Shown here piece after piece: positions 9,736-47,904 of a stretch of DNA of 49,182 nucleotides; the stretch's first letter is position 1; the number at the start of each line of letters is the position of its first letter. The stretch is taken from contig JAAFGT010000024.1 in assembly GCA_010365215.1 (NCBI GenBank), positions 1-49,182 on the forward strand. The letters are read 5' to 3'. The translations under genes were made by a program, and so were the position numbers. Source of the DNA: Acidipila sp. GTDB lineage: Bacteria; Acidobacteriota; Terriglobia; Acidiferrales; UBA7541. A model generated the notes under the pieces. It ran no database searches. It saw only the letters and a program-made list of their open reading frames with translations, and had not been told where the DNA came from.

Positions 9736-11904
9736 TCAGATCACGCGAACATTTAACACCATGGATTGCGTTCCCATAGCCGAAGTGCCGGTGATAACGA
9801 CATTGTAGTTGCCGGTGGGCGTAACCGGTGCTCCCGGGATGGCGGCGTTGCCGGACGAGCTGCCGCATCCTGACCAAGTGACTACCAGCAAGGCTAAAGC
9901 CAGGGACGGGACTAACCATCCAAAGTTGCGTGCAGCCGCGGGGTGATTCGAGGGAGCAATGGGGCGGCGCGTGCGATTCCACAGCCAACCACCCAAAGCC
10001 ATAATCCAAATCAGGCTGACAGGCACCCCCCACATCGGCGGCAGGCTGAGCGGCGCGGGCCCAAGTGGGGTTGGGGGCAGCAAGGCCGTGCAATTGGTGC
10101 GCAGGCTCACGGTCAGAGTAATTGGGGCGGTGCTGGTGATATTCACCGTAGCTGGACTGACCGTGCATATGGTGTTGGGGATGCTGCTATTTGCGCAACT
10201 AAATGTGACCGGGCCGAGGAAGCCAGGATTGGGTGTGAACACCACGGTAAACAAGGCAGTGCTGCCGGGCTGCACTACGGCCGTGGTGCTGCTGCCCGGA
10301 GCTGGCGTAAAAGTGCCCGGCGTAGTTACGACGCTGCCCCAGGTCACCGTAGCGGTATCGGTGATGGTGCCTACCGCGGCGGTGACCGTGTCGGTGCCGC
10401 CGGCTGTGCCCGTGTAGCAGAATTGCGCTGTACCGTTGGTGGCTGCGGTCATGAATCCGGTGGTGGGATTGGCGCCAGTAACGGTGAAGTCCACACGCAC
10501 TCCAGAGACCGGCATATTGTTCTGGTCGGTGACCGTAGCGGTCAAACAAGCGGGTGCGCCTACCGAGCCGGCAGAGACCTTGGGGGCCAGCGTGACGGCG
10601 GTAACCAGGGCTATGGGGGAGAGTGAGAATCCACCGGCATAACCGTAGCCATCGGCGGACGAGAATCCGTACACAATGGTTCCAAAGGGAACCGAGCCCA
10701 CCAGATTATGCGAGCCGACGCTCAATGGCACTTGCGCTCCTGAGAAACCGCTCGACCCGATGGGCGTGAAAAGACTCGGTGCGATGGCGGTGCCGTCCAG
10801 TTTAATCGTCCCCACACCTGAAGTTTGCGCGGTGATGTTGACAAAATTCGGGCTGAATCCAGTGGCCGGAGTGGTGACCGTATAGTTGGCCAAGTACTGC
10901 GCTGCCGGGGTCACAACCATCATGAAAGGATCGGCCGAAGCTCCGTCGAAGGACCCGCCGTTGGAATATTGCATTAGCATAATCGGCTTATCGGCGGTGA
11001 CCTGAGCCGCGCCTGTGATGATCTGCTCGAAGAACTTGCCGCGATTCAAGGTGGCCACTACCGCGCCATTGACGCTGACGTTGGTGGAATCGGTGGAAGC
11101 CAGAAAACGAAAAGTATCGCCGTTCATTCGCGTGGCCAGAGGCACGGTGAAAAAGTTCTGACCCCACGTGGCTGTGGGAGTCAGCTCCTCCACCAGAAAG
11201 TTGCAGGAAGCAAAAGCTATGGGCACGTCGGCACACTGATGACCGCCGAAAACGGCGATGGGATGATTGGCGCTAATCAGCGTTCCGGTGAGGTCATTCC
11301 CGTTGGTCACGTCAAGCAGTTGGTAGGTCTGTCCCTGGTTGAGCGTTATGGGAAAGGGAACCCCAGCTAAATGGTTTCCCTCGGGCGCGGACGGCGTAAT
11401 ATTCACTGTGGTGTTATCCGCGCTGGCGACGATGGCCAGCTCCGAGCCGTTGCTGCCGGCGAATATGGTGGTGTACGCAAGAACGATATAATCGGTGCCC
11501 AGGATCGGAGTGGGCAGGCCCAGGTATGCGTCCGTCGTAAACGGAATGGTGCTGAAGCCGTAGACGGTGATATTCGCCAGCGCCGTGACGTGAATTCCTT
11601 TGCTCTCCACCACATCAGAAGTTCCCAGTTCTGCTCCAATTGGGATATTAACCGTGGTCACTTGCCCGGCGGTCACCGTGAACGGCATGGCGAAGGTGAT
11701 CGCGGGAATCGAGACGGTCCCGGTGGTGCTGGTGCTCCCGGCAATAAAGAGGCTGAGCGTGGCCGCGCCCCCGGTATGGTTTTCCGGAAAGGTCAGCCAA
11801 AAATCAGTGCCGCTGGTGTCGGTACTCTGCGCGCGCATCGTTGTCGCGCCCGGCATCAGGATTGCTGCTACCGCAAGGATTACAAATAGCATTCTACGGT
11901 TCAT
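9736..11904 (-). CDS. Large surface protein with IgGFc-binding-like N-terminal domain and C-terminal double-TM/Cys tail
   Basis: 722 residues from the ATG at 11904 (AGAGGAAATC before it); the longer frame to 11988 adds 28 residues before the signal peptide. After the signal (about 1-22) the protein has GTDFWLTFPEN, the hallmark of the bacterial IgGFc-binding-protein N-terminal domain, filling about 25-430. An Ig-like (Big/invasin type) domain follows (about 435-530), then another beta domain (about 530-605). The end is unusual: a membrane segment (about 624-645), an Arg/Pro/His loop, a second one (about 662-678) closing in a lipobox-like SGC with Cys680, then a Pro/Gly linker and a strand module NYNVVITGTS. 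Likely exported and surface-associated; partner unknown. Confidence 0.75.
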   Translation of the reverse strand: MNRRMLFVILAVAAILMPGATTMRAQSTDTSGTDFWLTFPENHTGGAATLSLFIAGSTSTTGTVSIPAITFAMPFTVTAGQVTTVNIPIGAELGTSDVVESKGIHVTALANITVYGFSTIPFTTDAYLGLPTPILGTDYIVLAYTTIFAGSNGSELAIVASADNTTVNITPSAPEGNHLAGVPFPITLNQGQTYQLLDVTNGNDLTGTLISANHPIAVFGGHQCADVPIAFASCNFLVEELTPTATWGQNFFTVPLATRMNGDTFRFLASTDSTNVSVNGAVVATLNRGKFFEQIITGAAQVTADKPIMLMQYSNGGSFDGASADPFMMVVTPAAQYLANYTVTTPATGFSPNFVNITAQTSGVGTIKLDGTAIAPSLFTPIGSSGFSGAQVPLSVGSHNLVGSVPFGTIVYGFSSADGYGYAGGFSLSPIALVTAVTLAPKVSAGSVGAPACLTATVTDQNNMPVSGVRVDFTVTGANPTTGFMTAATNGTAQFCYTGTAGGTDTVTAAVGTITDTATVTWGSVVTTPGTFTPAPGSSTTAVVQPGSTALFTVVFTPNPGFLGPVTFSCANSSIPNTICTVSPATVNITSTAPITLTVSLRTNCTALLPPTPLGPAPLSLPPMWGVPVSLIWIMALGGWLWNRTRRPIAPSNHPAAARNFGWLVPSLALALLVVTWSGCGSSSGNAAIPGAPVTPTGNYNVVITGTSAMGTQSMVLNVRVI

Positions 11905-12389
11905 GATTTCCTCTGGGAGTAGGTTCAACGGCGCAATTTTGAAGCGAATTGATTCTGGCGCGAAAGCAGCAGAGAGATCCATAATCAAAGGCTAGGAAAT
12001 TGTATTGGTGTAAAGAAGGAATGGTTTGCGAGCGAAAGGCCGTGAAGCCGCTGATTACTGTCGAACTGCCGGTCGTGCCCAATCCCATCCTATCGTCCGC
12101 CTGGGTTGCGTCGTAGTCGCGGGACGTTCATGTAGCACCCGCTGGAAAACAATTGATTCGACTATCCTGAATTCGCAGCCTGCTGTCAAGCTTTGCGCAC
12201 TATCCTGGTGATTTAGTAGTGCCGAGGAGGTTTCGGACGGGAAAGTTGACGTGACTTGACACAAAAATTCTACTAATTGCCAAAAAAGCGCAATTTATTT
12301 CATACGGATTGGACCTGATCGACGTGCTTCTCCGGTCCGTTTAAAGGCGGGGGGATCTCAGCAGCGAGAAGTTGCGCCTGCTTTCCTGT
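11905..12389. other. Intergenic region (485 bp), promoter region of the surface-protein gene
   Basis: Separates the surface-protein start (11904) from the PilT-like stop (12390), both on the minus strand. It must hold the surface-gene promoter, but no convincing -35/-10 pair was identified. The AT-rich part at about 12255-12310 stands out from its GC-rich surroundings. No gene seen. Confidence 0.4.
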
Positions 12390-24061: not shown

Positions 24062-27000
24062 ATGACGACTAAAGGTTACTTCGCTCCACTATTGGGGGCT
24101 GCGGCGGTTCTGGTAGTTGGTAGCTCGTTGCTATTTACCATGAGCGACGGTCCGCAGGCAGGAATTGAATGGGGCGCGAAACATTCGAGCGCGCCTGCGG
24201 CGGGCAAGTCTGCAGCGGCGGCCGGAGCAGCGGCCAACCTGGCGAATCTTCCGTTACGGTTTGAGACAAACCAGGGCCAGGCCGGAAACGACGCGCAATT
24301 TGTAGCGCGCGGCCCCGGCTATAACGTTTTGCTGAACGGCGCGGAAGCGACGCTGGTTCTGGACCGCGCCAGCACGCCAGCGCGTCCTGTGCACACCACT
24401 CCCCAAGAGCGCATGCGGGAAGCCCAGCAGCGCAGCGCAGACCGGGCCGTCGTGAGCATGGAGATGGTCGGCGCGAATCGCGCGACCGTGGCGCAAGGCG
24501 TGGGTCGTCTGGAGACGAAGTCGAACTATTTTATTGGGAGTGACCCCAGCAAATGGCATCGCAATGTTCCCAACTACGCCCGCGTGCGCTACCAGGAAAT
24601 TTATCCCGGCGTGGATCTGGTGTATTACGGAAAAGACCGACGGCTGGAGTATGACCTGCTGGTTGCCGCCGGAGCCGATCCGGATGTGATCCGCATGCGC
24701 TACACCGGCGCAGAATCGATGCGCGTGGACCGCGACGGCGCCCTGGTGCTCCAAGTTAAGGGGCGGGAAATTCGCCAGGTGGCCCCCAACGCTTACCAGA
24801 CGGTTGCCGGAGAAACGCATTCCGTAACGGCGAGCTACATTTTGAAAGGCACCGAAGTGCAGATCGCACTAGGGAATTACGACCGCAGCCAGTCGCTGGT
24901 GATCGACCCGGCGATCGTGTATTCCACATATTTCGGCGGCAGCGGGGATGACACGGGCAGGGCGATCGCGGTGGACGGGTCCGGTAACGTTTATCTGACA
25001 GGAGACAGCACCTCAACCAATCTACCCACGACGGGCCATACCTTTCCGCCATTTCAAGCGGCACTGGGCAGTGGTGGCGACAGCGCCTATGTAGCCGAGT
25101 TAAACAGCACAGCGAGCGCGGTGATATTCGCGACTTACCTCGGCGGAAACACTTTCGACGAAGGGGACGCGATCGCCGTTGACGCGACCGGAGTTTATGT
25201 GGGCGGCGTAACCGCATCGAGCAATTTTCCGGTCACGGTGGGAGCCGCTCAGCCCACTTTTCTGGCGGCTGCTGGTCAAACCAACGGCTGGCTGGCGAAG
25301 TTGGATCCCAACGGTCAGAATCTAATCTATGCCACGTATTTAGGCGGAGGTGGATCGGATTTCGTCAATTCGCTGACTGTGGACGCAGCCGGAATCGTGT
25401 ACGCGACAGGATCCACGATTTCGGGAACCATCAACGGTGGCAATCCGCCAGATTTCCCGGTGACGGCGGGAGTGGTTCAGCCAACTTTCGGTGGCACGAA
25501 CGCGACCCCCGGGTTGAGTGGGACGGGCGATGCCTTTCTGACCAAATTGTCGGCTGATGGTACAACGTTCCTCTACTCCACTTACCTGGGAGGTTCGGGA
25601 GACGAGGAGGGCTGGGCAATACTGGTTGACGGCTCCGGTAATGCGTTCGTGGCCGGAGACTCGACCACCACTACACAGTTTCCCATGCCGGCGTCGCCAG
25701 GCGTGATTCAGCCCGGTCCCCCTGCCAAGACCGTCCCGGCTCACTTTACGGCCTTCGTCACGGAAGTAAATCCCACGGCGACTGCACTGTCGTTCTTCAC
25801 TTACCTGGGAGGCAGCGGCGACGACCAGCTCCGCGGGATGGCGCGCGATGCTAGCGGTAATATCTACATGACCGGCTCCACAACCTCGCCGGATTTCCCG
25901 GTTACTGCCGGCGCGGCGCAGCCTGCTTTGGCAGGCGGGAGCCCGTTCGGTGACGCTTATGTGACGAAAATAAACGCCACCGGCACCGCCAAAGTTTATT
26001 CCACCTACCTGGGTGGCAGCGATAATGACGCGGGAGCGGACATTCGGGTAGATACCAACGGTTTCGCTTACGTCGTCGGTTTCACCATGTCGAACAATTT
26101 TCCGGTGACCGCATCAGCGGTCCAGGCTGCGCTGGCAGGCACCCAGAACGCGTTTATAACCAGATTGAGCCCGGACGGTTCGCTGTTTGTCTTCAGCACT
26201 TATTACGGCGGGACCGGGGTGGCCACAACGCAAAGGATGGCACTCGACGCGAGCAACTCCGTTTACTTCACGGGTTTCACATCCAGTCCATTCCCAACCA
26301 CGGCAGGCGTAGTGCAGCCCGTGTTTGGAGGCGGGGCTACCGATGCCTTCGCCGTGAAGGTTGACGCTACGGTGCCGGTCGGGGCCTCCGTTCCAACTTT
26401 GGTGGCGTTCGGGAATCAGATGATCAACACGACCAGCGCCCCGCAGACCGTGACCTACACGAATATCGGCAACCAGCCGCTGATTCTCAGTGGCGTGGCC
26501 ATCAGCGCAAGCTATAGTCAGACCAATAACTGCGGTACGCTTCCCGTGACGCTTGCTCCCGGGGCAAGCTGCGTATTCACGCTGACATTTACGCCCACCG
26601 CAAATGGAGCCACGCCAGGCACGCTGACCCTCACTGACAACGCTGCGGGCAGCCCCCGTGTGGTTATGTTGACCGGAACGGGAACTTCTGCCTCCGGCCC
26701 TGTAGCATCGCTGACACCGTCGTCCACGGTTACTTTCGGCAGCCAGCCTGTGGGGACCACGAGCGCATCGCAGACGGTGACGCTCACGAATACAGGCAAC
26801 GCCACGCTTAACATTTCGAATATTTCCGCTTTGGGCGGTGCGAACCCAGGCGATTTCACATCGATTAACACTTGTGGTGCAACTCTTGCGGCTAACGCAT
26901 CCTGTACGTTTACCTTTACGTTCACTCCGGCGGCTGCCGGGGCCAGGTCCGCTACGGTCGTGATCACCAGTGACTCCGGTGGTGTTGCGGGGACGATGCA

Positions 27001-27898
27001 GACCATCACGCTGAATGGCACGGGCGGAGTGGTCAGCCCGACCGCAACGTTTACGCCATCCACAACACTCACTTTCGGCAGCCAGGCTGTCGGAAGCACC
27101 AGCGCATCACAGACCATAACGCTCACCAATACAGGCACCGCCCCGCTCAACATTTCGAATATTTCTGCTGTGGGCGGGACGAACCCGGGTGATTTCATAT
27201 CCAATAACAACTGCGGAGCGACTCTGGCTGTGGGCGCCTCGTGCACGTTTGCCGTGACCTTCACTCCGGCCAGTGCGGGTGCCCGGTCGGCAACCGTCGT
27301 TGTCACCAGTAATTCCGGGAACGTTCCGGGCACCATGCAGACACTCACGTTTAATGGCACTGGTGGAGTTCCGAGCTTCACGCTCAGCGCCACCAACACC
27401 ACGGCTACGGTCAGCCCTGGGCAGTCAGCGAGCTACCCGATCACGATCACGCCCGTCGGGGGATTCAATCAGGCCGTAAGCCTGTCGTGCTCTGGGGCAC
27501 CGGCAGGAGCGACCTGCACGGTGGTGCCGTCCAGCGTCACGCTGAACGGAGTGAGCCCTGCGTCTGCCACGGTGCAAGTAACTACGTCAGCCGGCGGCAA
27601 CCTGCTGCCGCGCCCGCAGAGCCGGAATGGAAATCCCCCGTGGTTCTTGGTGGTCTTGGCCATGACCATCGCGGCCTTGGGGGCGGGTATGGGCCTCAAG
27701 GTGGTCCCTGCGCGAGTGCGCGGCCAGTATCTGGCCCCGACTGCGCTGGTGCTGCTGATCGTTGGTCTCACCGTCTTTGCCGCGGCATGCGGCGATAAGG
27801 ACGGCTCGGGCACGCCAAAGGGTACTTCTACCCTGGTTGTGACCGGCACCGGTGGCGGTCAGACGCAGACGCTAAATTTGACTCTCATCGTCCAGTAA
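24062..27898 (+). CDS. Giant SBBP beta-propeller protein with choice-of-anchor D repeats and C-terminal double-TM/Cys tail
   Basis: 1278 residues, good ribosome site (GGGGAG). Order: signal or anchor helix (about 6-26); a conserved N-terminal domain (about 55-280; LPLRFETNQGQ, NYFIGSDPSKWHRNVPNY, YPGVDLVYYG, as in DUF7948); seven SBBP units (about 285-775), each with a TYLGGS motif, enough for a closed seven-bladed propeller; three choice-of-anchor D (ASPM-SPD-2-Hydin-like) domains (about 780-1100); and an Ig-like domain to about 1180. The tail has two membrane segments (about 1194-1213, 1224-1242), a lipobox-like AAAC with Cys1243, a Gly/Lys linker and a strand module ending LTLIVQ. It is expected to be exported and cell-surface associated. 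Its paralog is the next gene. Confidence 0.85.
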   Translation: MTTKGYFAPLLGAAAVLVVGSSLLFTMSDGPQAGIEWGAKHSSAPAAGKSAAAAGAAANLANLPLRFETNQGQAGNDAQFVARGPGYNVLLNGAEATLVLDRASTPARPVHTTPQERMREAQQRSADRAVVSMEMVGANRATVAQGVGRLETKSNYFIGSDPSKWHRNVPNYARVRYQEIYPGVDLVYYGKDRRLEYDLLVAAGADPDVIRMRYTGAESMRVDRDGALVLQVKGREIRQVAPNAYQTVAGETHSVTASYILKGTEVQIALGNYDRSQSLVIDPAIVYSTYFGGSGDDTGRAIAVDGSGNVYLTGDSTSTNLPTTGHTFPPFQAALGSGGDSAYVAELNSTASAVIFATYLGGNTFDEGDAIAVDATGVYVGGVTASSNFPVTVGAAQPTFLAAAGQTNGWLAKLDPNGQNLIYATYLGGGGSDFVNSLTVDAAGIVYATGSTISGTINGGNPPDFPVTAGVVQPTFGGTNATPGLSGTGDAFLTKLSADGTTFLYSTYLGGSGDEEGWAILVDGSGNAFVAGDSTTTTQFPMPASPGVIQPGPPAKTVPAHFTAFVTEVNPTATALSFFTYLGGSGDDQLRGMARDASGNIYMTGSTTSPDFPVTAGAAQPALAGGSPFGDAYVTKINATGTAKVYSTYLGGSDNDAGADIRVDTNGFAYVVGFTMSNNFPVTASAVQAALAGTQNAFITRLSPDGSLFVFSTYYGGTGVATTQRMALDASNSVYFTGFTSSPFPTTAGVVQPVFGGGATDAFAVKVDATVPVGASVPTLVAFGNQMINTTSAPQTVTYTNIGNQPLILSGVAISASYSQTNNCGTLPVTLAPGASCVFTLTFTPTANGATPGTLTLTDNAAGSPRVVMLTGTGTSASGPVASLTPSSTVTFGSQPVGTTSASQTVTLTNTGNATLNISNISALGGANPGDFTSINTCGATLAANASCTFTFTFTPAAAGARSATVVITSDSGGVAGTMQTITLNGTGGVVSPTATFTPSTTLTFGSQAVGSTSASQTITLTNTGTAPLNISNISAVGGTNPGDFISNNNCGATLAVGASCTFAVTFTPASAGARSATVVVTSNSGNVPGTMQTLTFNGTGGVPSFTLSATNTTATVSPGQSASYPITITPVGGFNQAVSLSCSGAPAGATCTVVPSSVTLNGVSPASATVQVTTSAGGNLLPRPQSRNGNPPWFLVVLAMTIAALGAGMGLKVVPARVRGQYLAPTALVLLIVGLTVFAAACGDKDGSGTPKGTSTLVVTGTGGGQTQTLNLTLIVQ
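26711..27033 (+). repeat. Intragenic choice-of-anchor D repeat, copy 1
   Basis: Encodes the unit starting LTPSSTVTFGSQPVGTTSASQ and ending with LNGTGG. The DNA is close to copy 2 (27053-27366), including the shared stretch CACGAATACAGGCA/CACCAATACAGGCA, which points to a fairly recent internal duplication. Confidence 0.75.
27053..27366 (+). repeat. Intragenic choice-of-anchor D repeat, copy 2
   Basis: Encodes the unit starting TPSTTLTFGSQAVGSTSASQ and ending with FNGTGG, with high nucleotide similarity to 26711-27033. The preceding unit (about 26400-26690) is more divergent. Confidence 0.75.
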
Positions 27899-28261: not shown

Positions 28262-30865
28262 ATGCACAGACCCCTGCGTTTAGCCGCCGCTCTTGGAATC
28301 GTGGGGGCAACTTCGCTTGGTTTGTTGCTGGTGCGGGAGACAGGCAGTTCCCAGGCGATTGGGAATGCGTCTAGCCGGGTTGCCAGCAATATTGCCGGCA
28401 AAACCTCCACTCAGCCAGCCATGGAGCGCGTTCAAGTGGGCAAGCTCTGGGCTCAGTTGCCGCTACGATTTGAGAAAAATGCCGGGCAGACCGATGCCAG
28501 CGTGCAGTATGTAGTACGCGGCAGCGGATATAGCGCGCTTCTCTCCGGCACCGGGGCGACTTACATTTTGGATGGACCGCGGCATGCGGATCCGCTCGCC
28601 CGGATGCACCCGCTGGAGCGGCTGCAGCAGGCGCGGCAGCGCGCCGCGGAACGCGTGGCCCTGCGCATGGAGATTGCCGGGGCGAATCCGGCGGCGCACG
28701 CCGAGCCGCTCGAGGCGCTGGAAACGCGAAGCAACTACCTGATCGGAAATGATTCCGCGCAGTGGCACACCAATATTCCCAACTATGCGAAGGTGCGATA
28801 CCACGAAGTGTACCCAGGGGTGGACCTGGTTTACCGCGGCCAGCAAAATCAGCTTGAATATGATTTTGTGCTGGCGCCGGGACGCGATCCGTCCGGAATC
28901 CGCCTGCGCTTCGCCGGCGCCGACTCGATCGAGACGAACGGCGACGGCGATCTGGTATTGCGGGCGCGGGATAGAGAACTGCGGCAGCATCGCCCGGTGG
29001 CCTACCAGATGGTGGGAGGTGAGCGCCACGAGGTCGCGGCCGGGTATGTGGTGCAGGGGAGCGACGTGCAATTTGTCCTCGGCCCGCACGATTCGAACCG
29101 CCAGCTCACCATCGATCCCGCGGTGCTGTACTCCACTTTTTTCGGCGGCTCGGGGACCGACGTGGCATTTGGCATCTTCAAGGACGGCGCGGGTGTGAAT
29201 TACATAACCGGGGCCACCGACTCTGTGAATTTGCCGACCACCGCGGGTGTGGTCCAGACGGTTAAGAGCGGTTTGGAAGATGTCTTTGTAGCGAAATTTA
29301 ATGGTGCCGGCACGGCACTTACCTTTTGCACTTACCTGGGAGGCACCGACTACGACGAAGGTGATGCCATCGTAGTGGATGGGCCGCGTAATGTTTACGT
29401 GGGCGGGATCACGGCGTCGGTAAACTTCCCGGGGACCTTGGGGCATGCGCAGGCCGTAAATAAAGCTCTGGTTGGCAGGACGAATGCTTTTATCGCCAAA
29501 TTAAATGCCGCCGGCACCGCAATTCTCTTTGCCACTTATCTCGGCGGAGGGGGCTCTGACGGAATCAACAGCATCGTGCTGGATGCTGCCAACAATGTAT
29601 ACGCCACCGGGTTCACGCTGTCTGGTTCGCCCGGCAGTGCGCCCGCTTTTCCCAGCACCGCTGGGGTGGTGCAGACTGCGTTTGGGGGAACCAGCGGAGG
29701 GAACACCGGCGACGCATTTGTAACCAAGTTGGCCGCGAATGGCAATTCGTTCCTATATTCCACATATCTAGGAGGCTCGCGCGACGATCAAGGCTGGGGG
29801 ATACAAGTTGACCCCGCCAGAAATGTTTACATCGCCGGCGAGACGCAAAGCAGCAATTTCGCCACGACGGCGGGCGTGCTACAACCGGCTGCCCCCGTGA
29901 AGTTACCCGATCGCAGTTATTCCTGCTGGCTAGCCGAACTCAACACCACAGCTAGCAGCAAGATTTTTTCCACGTATCTGGGCGGCAGCGGAAACGATCA
30001 TTGTTTTGGACTCTCGCGCAGCCCCGCGGGAAATCTTTACGTGACCGGCTCGACCACCTCAAATAACCTGGCGACTACCGCCGGCACCTTGCAACCGGCG
30101 TATGCCGGCCCAGCTCCTGGAAATTTCGGGGATGCCTTCGTCGGAGCGATTAATTCGACGGGAACGGGATTTGTCTATCTCACTTATCTGGGTGGCACAG
30201 GCGACGATGCCGGCGCGCAGGTCCGCGTCGATAATTCAGAATTTGCTTATGTGGTTGGCTTTACGAGGTCAGTGAATTTCCCGGTAACCCCTGGAGCCGC
30301 GCAGGTAACTCTGAACGGCCTACAGAACGTCTGGGTAGCGAAAATACGTCCAGGTGGAACGCTACTGGTTTACTCAAGCTATCTTGGCGGAGCGGGGACC
30401 GACGCGGCATTCGCGGGGGCCATAGCTAACCCGCCCGCGGCGGTAGCCATTACCGGAAGCACCACTGGGAATGGTTTTCCGACGATTGCGGGTGGGGTGC
30501 AAACGGTTTACGGAGGTGGGCCTACCGATGCGTTTGTGACGAATTATGACCTCCGGGCGCCGACTGCGGATTTCACGCCGTCGTCGCTCACGTTTCCGGC
30601 ACAGACCGTGGGAATTATGAGTGCGGCTATGCCTATCACCTATAAGAACATCGGAAATGCGTTATTGACGATTGGTGCTTATTCTACGACTGGAGATTTT
30701 TCTCAAACGCATACATGTGGTGCGACCCTGGCTGCAGGGGCAAGCTGTACCATCAACGTATTCTTTTTACCCACCGCTGTCGGCGCTCGGTCCGGCACGC
30801 TAAAGGTGACGGATAATGCGACGGGAAGCCCCTACATTCTTCAGCTCACGGGGACAGGCCAGTAA
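28262..30865 (+). CDS. SBBP beta-propeller protein, paralog of the preceding gene
   Basis: 867 residues with AGGAGAG before the ATG. It shares with its neighbour the N-terminal anchor, the conserved domain (LPLRFEKNAGQ, NYLIGNDSAQWHTNIPNY, YPGVDLVYRG) and seven SBBP units with TYLGG or similar motifs (about 290-765). It has only one choice-of-anchor D domain (about 770-866) and ends immediately after it, at TGTGQ, without the Ig domain and membrane/Cys tail. A palindromic regulatory array and its own promoter region precede it. The two paralogs probably arose by tandem duplication; the different C-termini suggest different anchoring or release. Confidence 0.85.
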   Translation: MHRPLRLAAALGIVGATSLGLLLVRETGSSQAIGNASSRVASNIAGKTSTQPAMERVQVGKLWAQLPLRFEKNAGQTDASVQYVVRGSGYSALLSGTGATYILDGPRHADPLARMHPLERLQQARQRAAERVALRMEIAGANPAAHAEPLEALETRSNYLIGNDSAQWHTNIPNYAKVRYHEVYPGVDLVYRGQQNQLEYDFVLAPGRDPSGIRLRFAGADSIETNGDGDLVLRARDRELRQHRPVAYQMVGGERHEVAAGYVVQGSDVQFVLGPHDSNRQLTIDPAVLYSTFFGGSGTDVAFGIFKDGAGVNYITGATDSVNLPTTAGVVQTVKSGLEDVFVAKFNGAGTALTFCTYLGGTDYDEGDAIVVDGPRNVYVGGITASVNFPGTLGHAQAVNKALVGRTNAFIAKLNAAGTAILFATYLGGGGSDGINSIVLDAANNVYATGFTLSGSPGSAPAFPSTAGVVQTAFGGTSGGNTGDAFVTKLAANGNSFLYSTYLGGSRDDQGWGIQVDPARNVYIAGETQSSNFATTAGVLQPAAPVKLPDRSYSCWLAELNTTASSKIFSTYLGGSGNDHCFGLSRSPAGNLYVTGSTTSNNLATTAGTLQPAYAGPAPGNFGDAFVGAINSTGTGFVYLTYLGGTGDDAGAQVRVDNSEFAYVVGFTRSVNFPVTPGAAQVTLNGLQNVWVAKIRPGGTLLVYSSYLGGAGTDAAFAGAIANPPAAVAITGSTTGNGFPTIAGGVQTVYGGGPTDAFVTNYDLRAPTADFTPSSLTFPAQTVGIMSAAMPITYKNIGNALLTIGAYSTTGDFSQTHTCGATLAAGASCTINVFFLPTAVGARSGTLKVTDNATGSPYILQLTGTGQ

Positions 30866-33122: not shown

Positions 33123-34655
33123 ATGCGCGCCTGCCGCATAGTGAATGTCTCTTCAATTTTCTCCATGATCCGGCAAATCCTCATCTATACATTCGCCCTG
33201 GTGCTGCTCAGGCTTATTTCCAATCGGATCAAATCATTCAAGGCTAAAGAGGGTTTATTCCTGGCCGCGAGCTATCTCTTCTATTTCACCTGGGGGGCCT
33301 GGTTTCTTGCCATTCTGATCTTCAGCTCGTTGATGAACTATGCGCTGGGAAGTTATTTGCGCCGGCAGACTACGCCATCACGTCTGTGGCTGGGGATCGC
33401 GCTCAATATCGTGTTTCTCAGTTTTTTTAAATACCTGCCGAGCGCGGGAATTGTATTCGTTGCCAACCCGGTGGTCGCCAGGCTTGCCTACATCGTCTTG
33501 CCGGTGGGCATGTCGTTCTGGACGTTTCAAGCTCTCAGCTATCTTCTCGACATCTATCGGGGCGAAGAACTGGATCCAACGTTGCTGGAATTCTGCCTGT
33601 ACATGGCCTTTTGGCCCACAGTTCTCTCCGGGCCGATCTGCCGCTTGACCAGTATGTTGCCGCAATTTCGCCAGGCCGAGGTTTTCTCGTGGCGCGAGAT
33701 CGGAGCAGGCACGCAGCGCATGCTGATGGGCGTCATGATGATGGTGCTATCGCAGATCATGGCGGATGGTCTGGCGCCCGGCCAGGGGGTTGACGCCGGA
33801 TTCGACACGGCGGCGAAGCTGCTGAGCGGAACGGACGCCTGGTGTCTGGCCATCGGCTATGGGTTTCAACTCTTTTTCAATTTTGCCGGCTACTCGCACC
33901 TGGTCATCGGGGCGGCTCAGGTGTTCAACATACAGCTGCACGAAAATTTCAAACGTCCCTACTTATCTACGACCCCGTCGATGTTCTGGACGCGGTGGCA
34001 TATGTCTCTCTCTTTCTGGATTCGCGACTACGTTTTTTTTCCACTGGCGACACTGCGAAGCGAACTCTGGTGGCGCAACTTTTCGTTGGTTATTGCGATG
34101 TTCGTTTTCGGGCTGTGGCACAAGGGTAGCGTGTTGTACATGGTGTGGGGCATTTACCATGGGCTGTTATTGGTCCTGCATCGGCAGTGGCAGCGGCTGG
34201 AAGGCCGGTGGAAACTTCCCGTACCGGAATTATTCCTGGCGCCGCTCTCGTGGTGTTTTACGTTTGCGGCGGTCTCTCTTGGCTGGATATTCTTTCGTGC
34301 GGAAAGCGGGCATCAAGCGGCCACCCTGTTTCGAGCGGTCCTCTCGCCGGCGAGTTATTTACATCACTCGCTGCCTGCAAATTTCTATCGGCTGTGTATT
34401 GTAGCGATGCTGGGCTATTTCGCGGTAGTAGGTATCGCGGCATTTCTCGATCGTTACGCTTTGGTGGGGGGCGCAAAAGCGAGCGATAACAGCGTGGCGG
34501 GCGCACCACGAAGGTCGACAAGGGTTCTCGAACTTCTTGCGCGCGAGCGGTTGGTGTGGTCCATCCCGATCGTCCTGGTTCTTTCGATGTATTTTTTCCT
34601 GGTGCTCCACCCGGAGGGGCCGCAAGTGGCTCCCATGATGTATCAGATCTTTTGA
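33123..34655 (+). CDS. MBOAT family membrane O-acyltransferase (AlgI/DltB-like)
   Basis: 510 residues (496 if the in-frame ATG at 33165, which starts directly before the first membrane helix, is used; neither has a clear Shine-Dalgarno). About 11 hydrophobic segments. MBOAT marks: LPVGMSFWTFQALSYLLDIYRGE, FWPTVLSGPICR, MFWTRWHMSLSFWIRDYVFFPL and the catalytic-His segment FGLWHKGSVLYMVWGIYHG. It moves acyl groups, usually acetyl, across the inner membrane onto polysaccharides. The next gene, 83 bases on, encodes an SGNH-like periplasmic protein, the usual partner that finishes O-acylation. Target polymer unknown. Confidence 0.88.
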   Translation: MRACRIVNVSSIFSMIRQILIYTFALVLLRLISNRIKSFKAKEGLFLAASYLFYFTWGAWFLAILIFSSLMNYALGSYLRRQTTPSRLWLGIALNIVFLSFFKYLPSAGIVFVANPVVARLAYIVLPVGMSFWTFQALSYLLDIYRGEELDPTLLEFCLYMAFWPTVLSGPICRLTSMLPQFRQAEVFSWREIGAGTQRMLMGVMMMVLSQIMADGLAPGQGVDAGFDTAAKLLSGTDAWCLAIGYGFQLFFNFAGYSHLVIGAAQVFNIQLHENFKRPYLSTTPSMFWTRWHMSLSFWIRDYVFFPLATLRSELWWRNFSLVIAMFVFGLWHKGSVLYMVWGIYHGLLLVLHRQWQRLEGRWKLPVPELFLAPLSWCFTFAAVSLGWIFFRAESGHQAATLFRAVLSPASYLHHSLPANFYRLCIVAMLGYFAVVGIAAFLDRYALVGGAKASDNSVAGAPRRSTRVLELLARERLVWSIPIVLVLSMYFFLVLHPEGPQVAPMMYQIF

Positions 34656-34738: not shown

Positions 34739-35857
34739 ATGCCGGACGCAATCCCCCACCAATCCGTCGCGGACGGAAAAAAACGATCGGGCATCAAGCG
34801 ATTTGCGATCAGATTTTGCGTGGGCACAACGATTACCGTGGTATTGCTGGTTGCCGGCGAGTGCTTTGCCTATTACCACTTGCCTCGCGGAAATGGGCAG
34901 GTTTTTAATTATAAGTCGTACGTACTTTGGCAAGCGACGCCCCGCGTAGAGGGGCAGTCCCTGGAGGAAGATGGACTGCGCCGGACGCTCTCTTCTCATT
35001 GTGAGGACGGCGACTTCACGATATGGTTGTTTGGCAGCTCCAGCATGTGGGGCTACTACCTTCGCGATGAAGACACAATACCTTCCCTGCTTGCCAAGGC
35101 CTACGAACAATCCGGCCGTCGAGTGTGCGTGAGAAATTACGGCCAGCCCGCGTGGGTGAGCACCCAAGAGTTGATTGAGCTGATGCTGGAACTGAAACAC
35201 GTCAAAAAGAAACCAGATGTAGTGATCTTTTATGACGGCTCGCTCGATTCCATCCTGCCCTCCCAGTCCGATGAGCCCGATGCGCATCTCGGATTTCCTA
35301 CCTTCAAACGGAAATTTGAGGCTTGGAAAACTCGCGAAGCGTCTGGATTTGACTACATCCTCAACACCAATACGTATGTGGCGCTTCGGCGGTATGCCCG
35401 CGGGCTGAACCTGGTCACCGGAGATTTTTCCCGTGCGATTCCGCAGGAACGATTCGTTGCGCAGGGCCAGCTGACCTACAGCAATTATTTAAAAAATATG
35501 GAGATGCTGGATACGCTGGCGGCACGCTACGGCTTCCAATATGTTTGTCTCTGGGAACCGTGGCTCCCGGAAGCCGACAAGCCATTGAGCGCATCGGAGA
35601 ATCTGATGAAGAACGGAACCGACGAAGACACCATCGGCGAGATGGGCGTGATGCACGCAACCTATAAGATCTTTAGAGACGCGCGCCAGCCCCATCTGAT
35701 CTACCTCGGAGACGTCTTCAAAAACCATCCGGAAACGTTGTTTCAGACCCTGGTCCATCTTCATCCAGGAGGGAATCTGCTCGTCGCCCAGCGGATTTAT
35801 CAAATATTGCAGAGCATGGATCGTAAGCCGGGTTCCGCGACTGCGAATTCTCACTAG
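34739..35857 (+). CDS. SGNH/GDSL-hydrolase-like, membrane-anchored partner of MBOAT
   Basis: 372 residues. A single N-terminal membrane helix (about 21-42) suggests a periplasmic enzyme body. The SGNH block I reads LFGSSSMWGYYL, with the GSSS at 99-102 providing the nucleophile. VVIFYDGSLDS is a plausible block III, and the C-terminal HLHPGGN provides the catalytic His. Such proteins act as acetyltransferases or esterases beside MBOAT proteins (as AlgX/AlgJ or PatB do). No ribosome site is obvious at the ATG. Assignment rests on the motif order and the neighbour; the exact acceptor is unknown. Confidence 0.7.
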   Translation: MPDAIPHQSVADGKKRSGIKRFAIRFCVGTTITVVLLVAGECFAYYHLPRGNGQVFNYKSYVLWQATPRVEGQSLEEDGLRRTLSSHCEDGDFTIWLFGSSSMWGYYLRDEDTIPSLLAKAYEQSGRRVCVRNYGQPAWVSTQELIELMLELKHVKKKPDVVIFYDGSLDSILPSQSDEPDAHLGFPTFKRKFEAWKTREASGFDYILNTNTYVALRRYARGLNLVTGDFSRAIPQERFVAQGQLTYSNYLKNMEMLDTLAARYGFQYVCLWEPWLPEADKPLSASENLMKNGTDEDTIGEMGVMHATYKIFRDARQPHLIYLGDVFKNHPETLFQTLVHLHPGGNLLVAQRIYQILQSMDRKPGSATANSH

Positions 35858-42915: not shown

Positions 42916-44182
<1,267 letters not shown>

Positions 44183-44190
<8 letters not shown>

Positions 44191-45130
44191 GAGCTGGGTT
44201 GCTCCTTGGCCGTTGCGGCGTGCCGGCAGTTTCTCCCAGCGCCCGGCGTAGATTTCCGCCGGCGGACTTCAATCGCCGGCGCGCATCTGTTGCGTTCGCG
44301 TCCGTTTTTAGCATCACGAGCGCGACGCGAAGATCGTTGCTAGCCGCGGCCAGTGCGTGGCGGGCCTGCGCCGGTGTGGCTCCGGCAGCAGCCTCGAGAA
44401 TTCCGGCGGCCCGCCGCCGGAGCTTGCGATTGGTCTGCGCCACATTGATCATCCAGTTGTCGTAGACATGACCGAGGCGGACCATCGCGGCTGTAGAGAG
44501 CATGTTCAGGACCAGCTTCTGCGCCGTGCCCGCTTTCAGCCGCGTTGAGCCTGCGAGGGCTTCCGGCCCAGTGGCGATGACGATGGGGACGTCAGCCAGC
44601 CTGGCGAGTGGCGAACCGCCGTTGCAAGTAACACACACCGTGGTTGCGCGACGACGCTTGGCGAATTGCAGAGCGCCCAAGACATAGGGAGTGCCGCCGC
44701 TGGCGGCCAGACCAACCACGACATCGCGCGCAGAAAGTTTTCTGGCGGCAAGATCACGAGCCCCGGCGGCGGAGGAATCTTCAGCGCCTTCGACGGCTTC
44801 CGTCAGCGCGCGGCGGCCACCGGCAATCACGCCCACTACAATTCCGCGCTTGATTCCAAACGTCGGCGGACATTCCGCGGCATCGAGCGCGCCCAGCCGG
44901 CCGCTGGTCCCGGCGCCGACATAGATCAACCGTCCGCCGTGAGCCAGGGCGTCAACAATCTTTTCCACGGCCCGGGCGATCTGCGGGAGAGTTTGCGCGA
45001 CAGCTCGCGCCACCTGCGCGTCTTCATGATTTAAGATTCGCAGGACTTGCGCAGTGGATTTAAGGTCCAGGCCGCGCGAGCGTAGGTTGCGCTTCTCGGT
45101 AGCAGCGGATTTCGGATAGCGACGTTGCAC
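44183..45130 (-). CDS. murQ: N-acetylmuramic acid 6-phosphate etherase MurQ
   Basis: 315 residues, GTG start. It splits MurNAc-6-phosphate to GlcNAc-6-phosphate and D-lactate in the cytosol during cell-wall recycling. SIS-type motifs: TEKRN near the start, [23 protein letters not shown] with the catalytic Glu, [12 protein letters not shown] and [23 protein letters not shown]. Length fits MurQ (about 300). There is no MurNAc kinase (AnmK/MurK) or MurP transporter in the window. It lies 38 bases after the GH3 gene in the same direction and overlaps murA by eight bases. A perfect TATAAT on the minus strand (45143-45138) lies seven bases upstream of the GTG. Confidence 0.95.
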
Positions 45131-45168: not shown

Positions 45169-47904
45169 CTAGTGCGGCGGGGCGATGCCTAACCCTTCAA
45201 TCACGGCATCGTGCAGCGCGGAGCGAACCTTAACCAGTTTGGCCGCGTCTGCGTTGGGATCGCGTGAGGTCAGGGTGATCACCACCACCAATTCTTTTTC
45301 AGGGTCGATCCAGAGAGACTCCCGCGGGGAACGTCCAAATCCGAAAGCCCGCGCAGAAAAATATTTACCGGTTCCCAGCTCGGGTGACGGGCAATCCCAT
45401 CCATCGGTGAAGGCGACGTTGTTCAATTCACGCCTAACCGACATCTCTTCGACGACTGCGCGGTGGAGAAAACGGTCATGCGCAAAAATGCCGCCGTTCA
45501 GCCACATCTGCCCCAGAGCCGGCAACTCCGGATAGGCCAGCGTCCGCGGGGCCTTATCTTCGAGCTCCTCATCGACCGCCTTCGTAATTTCGCCGAAGCT
45601 AAACTCCGAAAGTGTCGCTCCCGTTAATCGAGTCAGCACGCCCTCAAGCAAAACGTTGTTCCATGGCGAGTAGGCGAAAGCTGTTCCAGGGTCGGTGGTC
45701 AACGGCACGGCCAAAGCAGACGTCAGAAGATGTTTTTCGTGAGCGACAAATGTTCTCGCGTCGGCTGGGGCCAAGCCGGAAGTGTGCGAGAGAAGGTGCC
45801 GCACCGTAACGGTTTGCCGGCGCGCGCCGTCCGGTCCAGCCGCCCACTCGGGCATGATTCGAAAAATTGGCGTGTCCAGCGTCAAGCGCTTTTGTCCAAG
45901 CAAAGTGCCGATCGCGGTAGTGAGGTACGGCTTTGCGCGAGCGTCACCTGCTGCAGGTAATTGTCCTTTTGTAACTTGCGCAGAGTGTCGCGCGAGGTCG
46001 CCGCTGTACACTACATAAAGCGTACCGGCAATTCCCTCCAAACCAGAACGATCCAGAATGTCAAAAGCCGGTTTCAAGTGCGCAATCATCTCGCCGGATG
46101 CGGCTTTCAAAGTCAAATGGTCAGCGGAGGTGGTAAGGCCGTCGTCCACCCCGAGTGCGTGCGGCTGTGCGCCCGGAAGGCGGACGGGGAGCTTGCCGCC
46201 GATCGCCACTTCGCCGAAAAGCGCGCGCGCGACGGCGCGTTGACCAACGTCATTGGTGTCGAAGACAGCAAGCCACGTCTTGGCCTCCGGGTAGCTCTCC
46301 ATCAAGTAGGGGCTGCCGAACGAGGCTACGATCGCAGGTTTACCGGAGGCCAGTAGACGATGCACCAGCTCGGCTTGGTCGGGAGGGAGACCAACCGTGC
46401 CTTTGCGGTCGGCCACGCGCACAGTGAGGGCGAGCAATATCGTGTCGTAGTTGGCCAGCGGAGGAATCGTGACGGTGGCCGGACGGAAGTAGCGCGAATC
46501 TATTTTTACCACATCCACAGTTTCGAGCGCGGACTTCACCGCCTGGGCAAACTCGTAGCTGGGGTTGGTGTCAGGATCGGCGACGACGGCGACCAGGAGC
46601 GTGCGCAAAGGTTTACGCGCATCGAGAGGCACCAGTTTGGCTTCATCGCGCAGCAGAGTCACGCCGCGATCGGCGATATCCTGCGCGGCGCGTGTGAACT
46701 CGGGCTCCGCATAAACGCTATTGAGCTTGTCCACATCCACCATTCGCTGGGTGTCCAGGCCCAACCGGGCCTTGGCGCGAAGAATGCGGCGCACCGCGTC
46801 GTCGAGGCGTTCTATGGAAACGCGACCGGTCTGCACCGCTTCTTTCATGGCCAGAACCGCCGCGTCGGGAACCGGCGGCATGAGCAGAACGTCGGCCCCG
46901 GCGGCGAAGGCGCGCACAGCCACTTCCGCCGGCGCATAATGATTTGTTACGCCGCCCATATCGAGCGCGTCGGTGACGATCAGTCCATCGAAGCCCATCT
47001 GTTTGCGTAACAGTTCGGTGAGCACTTTGGGCGAAAGCGTCGCGGGCAGCTCCGGGTCAGGCTCGAGAGCGGGAACCACCAGGTGGCCGGTCATGATCGA
47101 GCTGACGCCGGCGGCAATGGCGGCGCGGAAGGGAACCAGGTCCACCGCGTCCAGCCGCGCGCGGTTGGAGTGAACCATCGCTAAATCGAGGTGCGAGTCT
47201 TCGCCGGTATCGCCGTGGCCGGGAAAGTGTTTTGCCGTGGCGAGCGCGCCGTTTTCTTCCACGCCGCGCACGAATGCGGAAACGAAGGCGCTGACTTTTT
47301 TCGGGTCCTCGCCAAATGAGCGGATATTGATGATGGGATTATCGGGATTGCTGTTGACGTCTGCCACCGGCGCGAACAGCCACTGCACGCCGGCGGCGCG
47401 CGCTTCGAGCGCGGAGATGCGCCCGATGGTGTAAGCGTCCTCCGCCCGGCCGGTTGCGGCCACAGCCATCGGCTCGGGGAAGCTGGTGCCCTCGATGATG
47501 CGCATCACCGTGCCGTGCTCGAAATCGGCGGCGATGAGCAGGGGGATTTTCGCTTTGCGCTGGAGCTGGTTGGTAAGCGCCGCGGTGGCATAGACGGTGC
47601 TGCGCTCAGTGCCCCGGGGCCCGCCGCGCGTGGCCAGAATGAAGCCGCCGGCGTGGTCGCTTTCCACGTGGCGCATCAGCGTCTGATAATCCGGGCTTTC
47701 CGTCGAGTAAAATCCGCCGAAGTACGTGGGGAAAATTACCTGGCCGACTTTTTCGTCGGTGGTCATATGCTTGAGGGTGTTCTCGACCCAGCGCTCGCCT
47801 GCGGGTGATAGCTTTGCGCGGTGCGGCTTGAACTCCTGTGGATGAGTTCCGGGAGTTGCCGCAAAGATCATCAGGATAAGGAAGAAGGCGAGACGGCTAC
47901 GCAC
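45169..47904 (-). CDS. Secreted GH3 beta-N-acetylglucosaminidase fused to a catalytically dead serine-hydrolase-like domain
   Basis: 911 residues, GTG start, signal peptide (RLAFFLILMIFAATPGT). The GH3 part (about 30-400) has the NagZ-type KHFPGHGDTGEDSH dyad segment and the nucleophile in VTDALDMGG, so it should cut GlcNAc-MurNAc bonds in the periplasm or outside. A GH3 C-terminal alpha/beta domain follows (about 410-600). The last 300 residues align with beta-lactamase/PBP4*-type proteins (LSHTSGLAPADARTF region, SLWIDPEKELVVVI). However, SxxK is Y660-L-T-T663, Y-x-N is Y745-S-P747 and HTG is FGR before ESLWIDP, so that domain cannot be a serine hydrolase. Heads a likely GH3-murQ-murA operon. 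Confidence 0.9.
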   Translation of the reverse strand: MRSRLAFFLILMIFAATPGTHPQEFKPHRAKLSPAGERWVENTLKHMTTDEKVGQVIFPTYFGGFYSTESPDYQTLMRHVESDHAGGFILATRGGPRGTERSTVYATAALTNQLQRKAKIPLLIAADFEHGTVMRIIEGTSFPEPMAVAATGRAEDAYTIGRISALEARAAGVQWLFAPVADVNSNPDNPIINIRSFGEDPKKVSAFVSAFVRGVEENGALATAKHFPGHGDTGEDSHLDLAMVHSNRARLDAVDLVPFRAAIAAGVSSIMTGHLVVPALEPDPELPATLSPKVLTELLRKQMGFDGLIVTDALDMGGVTNHYAPAEVAVRAFAAGADVLLMPPVPDAAVLAMKEAVQTGRVSIERLDDAVRRILRAKARLGLDTQRMVDVDKLNSVYAEPEFTRAAQDIADRGVTLLRDEAKLVPLDARKPLRTLLVAVVADPDTNPSYEFAQAVKSALETVDVVKIDSRYFRPATVTIPPLANYDTILLALTVRVADRKGTVGLPPDQAELVHRLLASGKPAIVASFGSPYLMESYPEAKTWLAVFDTNDVGQRAVARALFGEVAIGGKLPVRLPGAQPHALGVDDGLTTSADHLTLKAASGEMIAHLKPAFDILDRSGLEGIAGTLYVVYSGDLARHSAQVTKGQLPAAGDARAKPYLTTAIGTLLGQKRLTLDTPIFRIMPEWAAGPDGARRQTVTVRHLLSHTSGLAPADARTFVAHEKHLLTSALAVPLTTDPGTAFAYSPWNNVLLEGVLTRLTGATLSEFSFGEITKAVDEELEDKAPRTLAYPELPALGQMWLNGGIFAHDRFLHRAVVEEMSVRRELNNVAFTDGWDCPSPELGTGKYFSARAFGFGRSPRESLWIDPEKELVVVITLTSRDPNADAAKLVKVRSALHDAVIEGLGIAPPH

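Follow-up and report, generated by a model that had tools for sequence, protein, structure and literature searches.

A NagZ-type GH3 protein of Acidipila sp. fused to a serine-hydrolase domain without its catalytic motifs

In Bacillus subtilis, AmiE and NagZ act sequentially in the extracellular degradation of muropeptides, and their genes belong to the cluster murQRP-amiE-nagZ-ybbC (PMC5061867). Both enzymes are inactive on intact peptidoglycan (PMC10653849). The fusion of a GH3 enzyme with a beta-lactamase domain is also already known. In RmNag3 from Rhodothermus marinus (PMC6987092), a NagZ-type GH3 is followed by a C-terminal beta-lactamase domain, and the protein is reported to be active on pNP-GlcNAc and chitooligosaccharides.

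The sequence analysed here (the window; 49,182 nucleotides of Acidipila sp.) is an entire contig (C66) from an assembly of 4.1 Mb in 91 contigs. It encodes a 911-residue fusion that shares the three-part architecture and the (here predicted) signal peptide with RmNag3. The beta-lactamase-fold domain of the window protein is clearly dead. Like the B. subtilis locus with NagZ (YbbD), AmiE (YbbE) and YbbC, the window brings a NagZ fold, an AmiE-like serine hydrolase (SH) and, putatively, NamZ/YbbC together in one recycling locus. However, these are separate genes in B. subtilis and fusions in the window, where one SH is dead and the other would sit on a NamZ protein. In the open-licence literature searched, no description was found of a dead SH in a GH3-SH fusion, or of SH complementarity between GH3 and NamZ. 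The coordinates of the features are summarized in Table 1.

Table 1. Features of the fusion gene and its cluster (window coordinates)
Feature	Position	Strand	Basis
GH3 (NagZ-like) + dead serine-hydrolase fusion, 911 aa	45169..47904	-	ORF call, Pfam
GH3 catalytic part, residues ~40-579	46168..47785	-	Pfam; invariant columns
Dead AmiE-like SH domain, residues ~597-911	45172..46116	-	alignments, Pfam, no SxxK
DARA (654-657) in place of SxxK	45934..45945	-	alignment
YSP (745-747) in place of YSD/YxN	45664..45672	-	alignment
FGR (856-858) in place of HTG	45331..45339	-	alignment
Site of deleted active-site rim loop, residues ~771-791; pLDDT 44-58	45532..45594	-	alignment, AF2
Intact serine hydrolase (ASLTK, YSD, GHTG), divergent, cut by contig end	47969..49182	+	Pfam, alignment
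murQ, MurNAc-6-phosphate etherase, downstream of fusion	44183..45130	-	TIGR00274; conserved neighbour
murA, UDP-GlcNAc 1-carboxyvinyltransferase	42916..44190	-	TIGR01072; conserved neighbour

Elsewhere in the window, two neighbouring large proteins (24062-27898 and 28262-30865, plus strand) both contain DUF7948 and SBBP beta-propeller repeats, to which the first adds ASH/HYDIN-like Ig domains. A 750-aa protein on the minus strand (9736-11988) contains an IgGFc_binding domain (PF17517, 252 bits) and adjoins a FecR-domain protein. For two adjacent plus-strand ORFs of 510 and 372 aa (33123-34655 and 34739-35857), there is no Pfam match at E 1e-8.

The fusion gene starts with GTG, and a hydrophobic stretch at the N-terminal of its product resembles a signal peptide. 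Pfam assigns GH3_N to residues 48-376 (PF00933, E 3.7e-90), GH3_C to residues 416-579 and a partial PF00144 to residues 658-774, and the product is predicted to be a secreted or periplasmic NagZ-like N-acetylglucosaminidase with an AmiE-like SH domain. GH3 enzymes of NagZ type are recognized by an Asp nucleophile and the Asp/His dyad of KHFPGHGxxxxDSH. The fusion has both, in KHFPGHGDTGEDSH with D236/H238 and in VTD312, and D236, H238 and D312 are invariant in the alignment of 49 homologues, in agreement with the initial annotation, which considered the GH3 motifs intact. The best PDB match of the fusion model is NagZ of B. subtilis (3bmx/4gyj; for 3bmx, Z 54.4 over 538 residues at 2.4 A). From these features, the GH3 half is apparently an intact N-acetylglucosaminidase of NagZ type.

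The homology of the C-terminal domain to serine hydrolases holds: PF00144 scores 75.8 bits, and the domain can be aligned to intact fused copies. A stand-alone AmiE-like SH of Piscibacillus, which adjoins NagZ together with AnmK and NamZ genes, shares 25% identity with the dead domain, 36% with an intact fused SH and 39% with the window's neighbouring SH. The family motifs ASLTK, YSD and GHTGFTG read DARA, YSP and GFGRSPR in the fusion. In the alignment to intact fused copies the Ser column is occupied by D654 and the Lys column by A657, so the replacement of SxxK by YLTT (660-663) in the initial annotation was read in the wrong register; K658 may be the catalytic lysine shifted by one. A Ser-x-x-Lys elsewhere in the domain had been proposed as a check, and none was found over all 911 residues. 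The change of HTG to FGR was read correctly (GHTG becomes GFGR), and that of YxN to YSP was right for the motif, although Tyr745 itself is still present. The claim that all SH motifs are gone stands for SxxK, YSD and GHTG and understates the loss, since the rim loop was overlooked: the alignment has gaps at 25 residues whose conservation among intact copies is 90% or higher, and the rim block PTE...GEVHDENAxAMGGVAGHAGLFST is mostly lost with them. The motif losses go together in the dead lineages and are not three independent losses as first suggested.

With the full-length protein as query, 83 of the 89 genomes from this bacterial family were found to encode the fusion. The motifs are intact in 67 orthologous loci where they are readable, and dead SH domains were found in four orthologous loci from three genera (the window, G006, G010 and G021) and in one paralogue. 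The motif sites read ERIYK/REEAE/YGWTD in G006, and GATLQ and GAMLR, WPAER and WSTER, YGW and YGY in G010 and G021, respectively. The catalytic His is replaced by an aromatic residue in all four dead orthologues (F/W/W/Y), and the Tyr of YxN, which corresponds to Tyr745 of the window, is lost in the three others. Among the 81 most conserved positions, each of the four dead copies keeps 39-42, so about half have changed. Residues shared by the four dead copies and the intact consensus concentrate in Q799-R815, G835-W836 and G846-V874. The region of the old pocket is not the same in the different dead lineages.

In a tree built from the GH3 part only, the window groups with G006 (support 100/99) and G010 groups with G021 (100/100). 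A tree with a single loss for the four dead orthologues is 11 log-likelihood units worse but is not rejected (p-AU 0.157). One loss for all dead copies was rejected, because the paralogue branches apart (97/99). This paralogue (L051; G012:C115) is a GH3-SH fusion with GSLGE/YSPLG/FGETD at the motif sites and adjoins neither murQ nor NamZ. By its GH3 part it belongs with another genus than the remainder of G012, probably through transfer, and an intact copy of the fusion is located elsewhere in the same genome. Two tandem GH3-SH fusions were also found in Bacteroides sp. 214 (L034:2981-5998), one of which has AELTQ for ASLTK and keeps GHTG; to judge from these motifs, spare SH domains may also have lost catalysis outside this class.

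From 49 sequences, AF2 models the full-length protein with a pLDDT of 90.9, and the dead domain is confident except for residues 641-660 and 771-790, where the nucleophile has been lost and the loop deleted. Modelling of the dead domain alone from the four dead sequences gave a pLDDT of only 46.5. The whole SH fold is likely retained, although the confidence of the full-length model is partly owed to the intact homologues among its sequences. A Foldseek search with this poor model pointed to EstB and family VIII esterases (E ~1e-5, TM ~0.3), which is only a hint. The VIA-align structural matches of the full model are GH3 chains and so are silent on the SH domain.

Selection was estimated as dN/dS by the NG86 method, with bootstrap ranges, for the dead pair G010/G021 (L046/L047, genus g11). 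Between these two dead copies dN/dS is 0.273 for SH (bootstrap 0.215-0.359) and 0.106 for GH3; two pairs of intact copies give 0.152 for SH. Constraint on the dead SH is thus about 2-fold relaxed compared with intact copies, and far from neutral. When neutral change was simulated at 0.3 substitutions per site, 4-5 stops were expected in the domain and the probability of no stop was at most 0.033, and none of the dead copies contains a stop codon. From the dN/dS between two dead copies and the absence of stops, the dead SH of this pair is under purifying selection, and the dead copies are not random decay. Between the window and G006 (L045) synonymous sites are saturated; by analogy with G010/G021, purifying selection may also act on the dead domain of the window.

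Generally, genomes of the family carry an intact GH3-SH fusion with murQ-murA. The divergent neighbour is NamZ (exo-beta-N-acetylmuramidase, PF07075 + PF20732), which stands by itself (~440 aa) or carries an intact SH at its N terminus (~850 aa). These SH-NamZ proteins of relatives (PF00144 + PF07075 + PF20732) are encoded divergently in the same cluster and have SH on the N-terminal side of NamZ, whereas in the window fusion SH is C-terminal to GH3. In the window the neighbouring SH reaches the contig end within GHTGFT, and the only NamZ of the genome lies at the end of contig C23, where it begins mid-frame. Because of this, we infer that the two pieces form one SH-NamZ gene across an assembly gap. 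The motifs are intact in every SH-NamZ copy read, the window copy being cut in GHTGFT.

Of 15 loci with an SH-NamZ neighbour, 4 have a dead fused SH, against none of the 44 where NamZ stands by itself (Fisher p 0.003). All four dead orthologues have an intact SH on the divergent gene, fused to NamZ or, in the window, putatively so. However, a tree-aware test finds at most 2 independent pairs (sign test p 1), and the association between dead fused SH and an SH-NamZ neighbour is suggestive, not proven. As a separate observation, one genome has a second murQ cluster (L097; G091:C29) with GH3 alone; immediately upstream, a short frame has the start of an intact SH but is apparently frameshifted further on.

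Across the class, SH is found on GH3, on NamZ or on both, and on neither partner in only two genomes, both of family f10 (G049 and G057). In family f7, the GH3 matches listed are GH3-only frames, mostly ~590-700 aa and some up to ~810 aa. A NamZ frame of 745-972 aa is present in all 18 f7 genomes searched, with intact SH in those that were read; L165-L172, L191, L192 and others represent this arrangement. Family f9 shows the opposite pattern, with an intact fused SH (10 loci, nine of them complete, plus L089/L090) and with NamZ alone where read. Where checked, SH placement on GH3 or NamZ is complementary class-wide. One f7 locus (L168; G044:C115:4129-4728) has a 1384-aa open frame with SH, NamZ and further sequence, and its contig also has a GH3 fragment.

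The explanation that we favour, with somewhat more than even confidence, is that redundancy with the neighbour's SH released the fused SH from its catalytic duty, leaving a pseudoenzyme domain with a structural role. The gene product would be a NagZ-type N-acetylglucosaminidase in a peptidoglycan-recycling cluster of the order NamZ / GH3-SH - murQ - murA. The ancestral fused SH would have been an AmiE-like enzyme, presumably an amidase, that took muropeptides from NagZ or worked on them alongside it. Once the NamZ protein carried an intact SH, the fused one would have become dispensable for catalysis, after which the nucleophile, the His motif and the rim loop would have been lost, and the dead domain would be retained by packing on or stabilising the GH3 part. 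In such a pathway NagZ would free GlcNAc from muropeptides, the neighbour's SH together with NamZ would take off the peptide and free MurNAc, and the MurQ step would follow inside the cell.

A rather doubtful reading, which still deserves some weight, is passive decay, in which the fused SH has had no role since it became redundant and stays because a truncation has not occurred or would give a sticky protein. It agrees with the relaxed constraint, with the changes at about half of the most conserved positions in each dead copy and with the f7 relatives that have no SH on GH3. On the other hand, dN/dS is well below 1, the dead copies are free of stops, and both genera of one supported clade (100/99) have kept the domain. 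The initial annotation named close homologues with intact motifs as what would show that this copy is simply decaying; it did not take into account the working SH encoded next door. Because 67 loci are intact and constraint is relaxed, some decay of the redundant copy belongs to the explanation, but the dN/dS of 0.27 and the lack of stops do not fit decay alone. Its idea of a domain kept in a non-catalytic role is supported to that extent, and also by the core positions kept in the four dead copies, while the roles it proposed fared worse. That an artefact of assembly or a frameshift makes an intact gene look dead is highly improbable: the window is indeed a contig of a fragmented assembly, but the frame is open throughout, stop codons abound in both other frames over residues 601-800 at the start of the domain, and the same type of loss is seen in three other genomes.

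Binding of muropeptides or glycan strands for GH3 by a pseudoenzyme, close to the muropeptide holding first suggested, is quite improbable. Some purifying selection exists, the blocks at Q799-R815, G835-W836 and G846-V874 are kept, and the aromatic residues in place of His could stack on a sugar, but the ligand-binding rim loop and the catalytic Ser, Lys and His are gone, and the old pocket varies between dead lineages. The other role first suggested, sensing of beta-lactams by acylation as in penicillin-recognising receptors, is scarcely credible. The domain does descend from a beta-lactamase fold (PF00144); acylation needs an active-site Ser, which is absent together with any SxxK in the protein and the His of HTG, and intact relatives match AmiE-like hydrolases, not receptors. 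It is also unlikely, if conceivable, that the dead domain is a docking or regulatory module that holds, for example, the SH-NamZ partner or polymeric glycan strands near the GH3 site; if so, the two halves of the pathway would work as a complex.

In summary, one catalytic domain, an AmiE-like SH, rides on either or both of two muropeptide-pathway enzymes across a bacterial class, and the spare SH meets different fates, being deleted or absent in one family and kept as a dead domain in another. A PF00144 match in such fusions is no proof of hydrolase or beta-lactamase activity. The class offers a natural test of how bifunctional fusions become pseudoenzyme-containing proteins.
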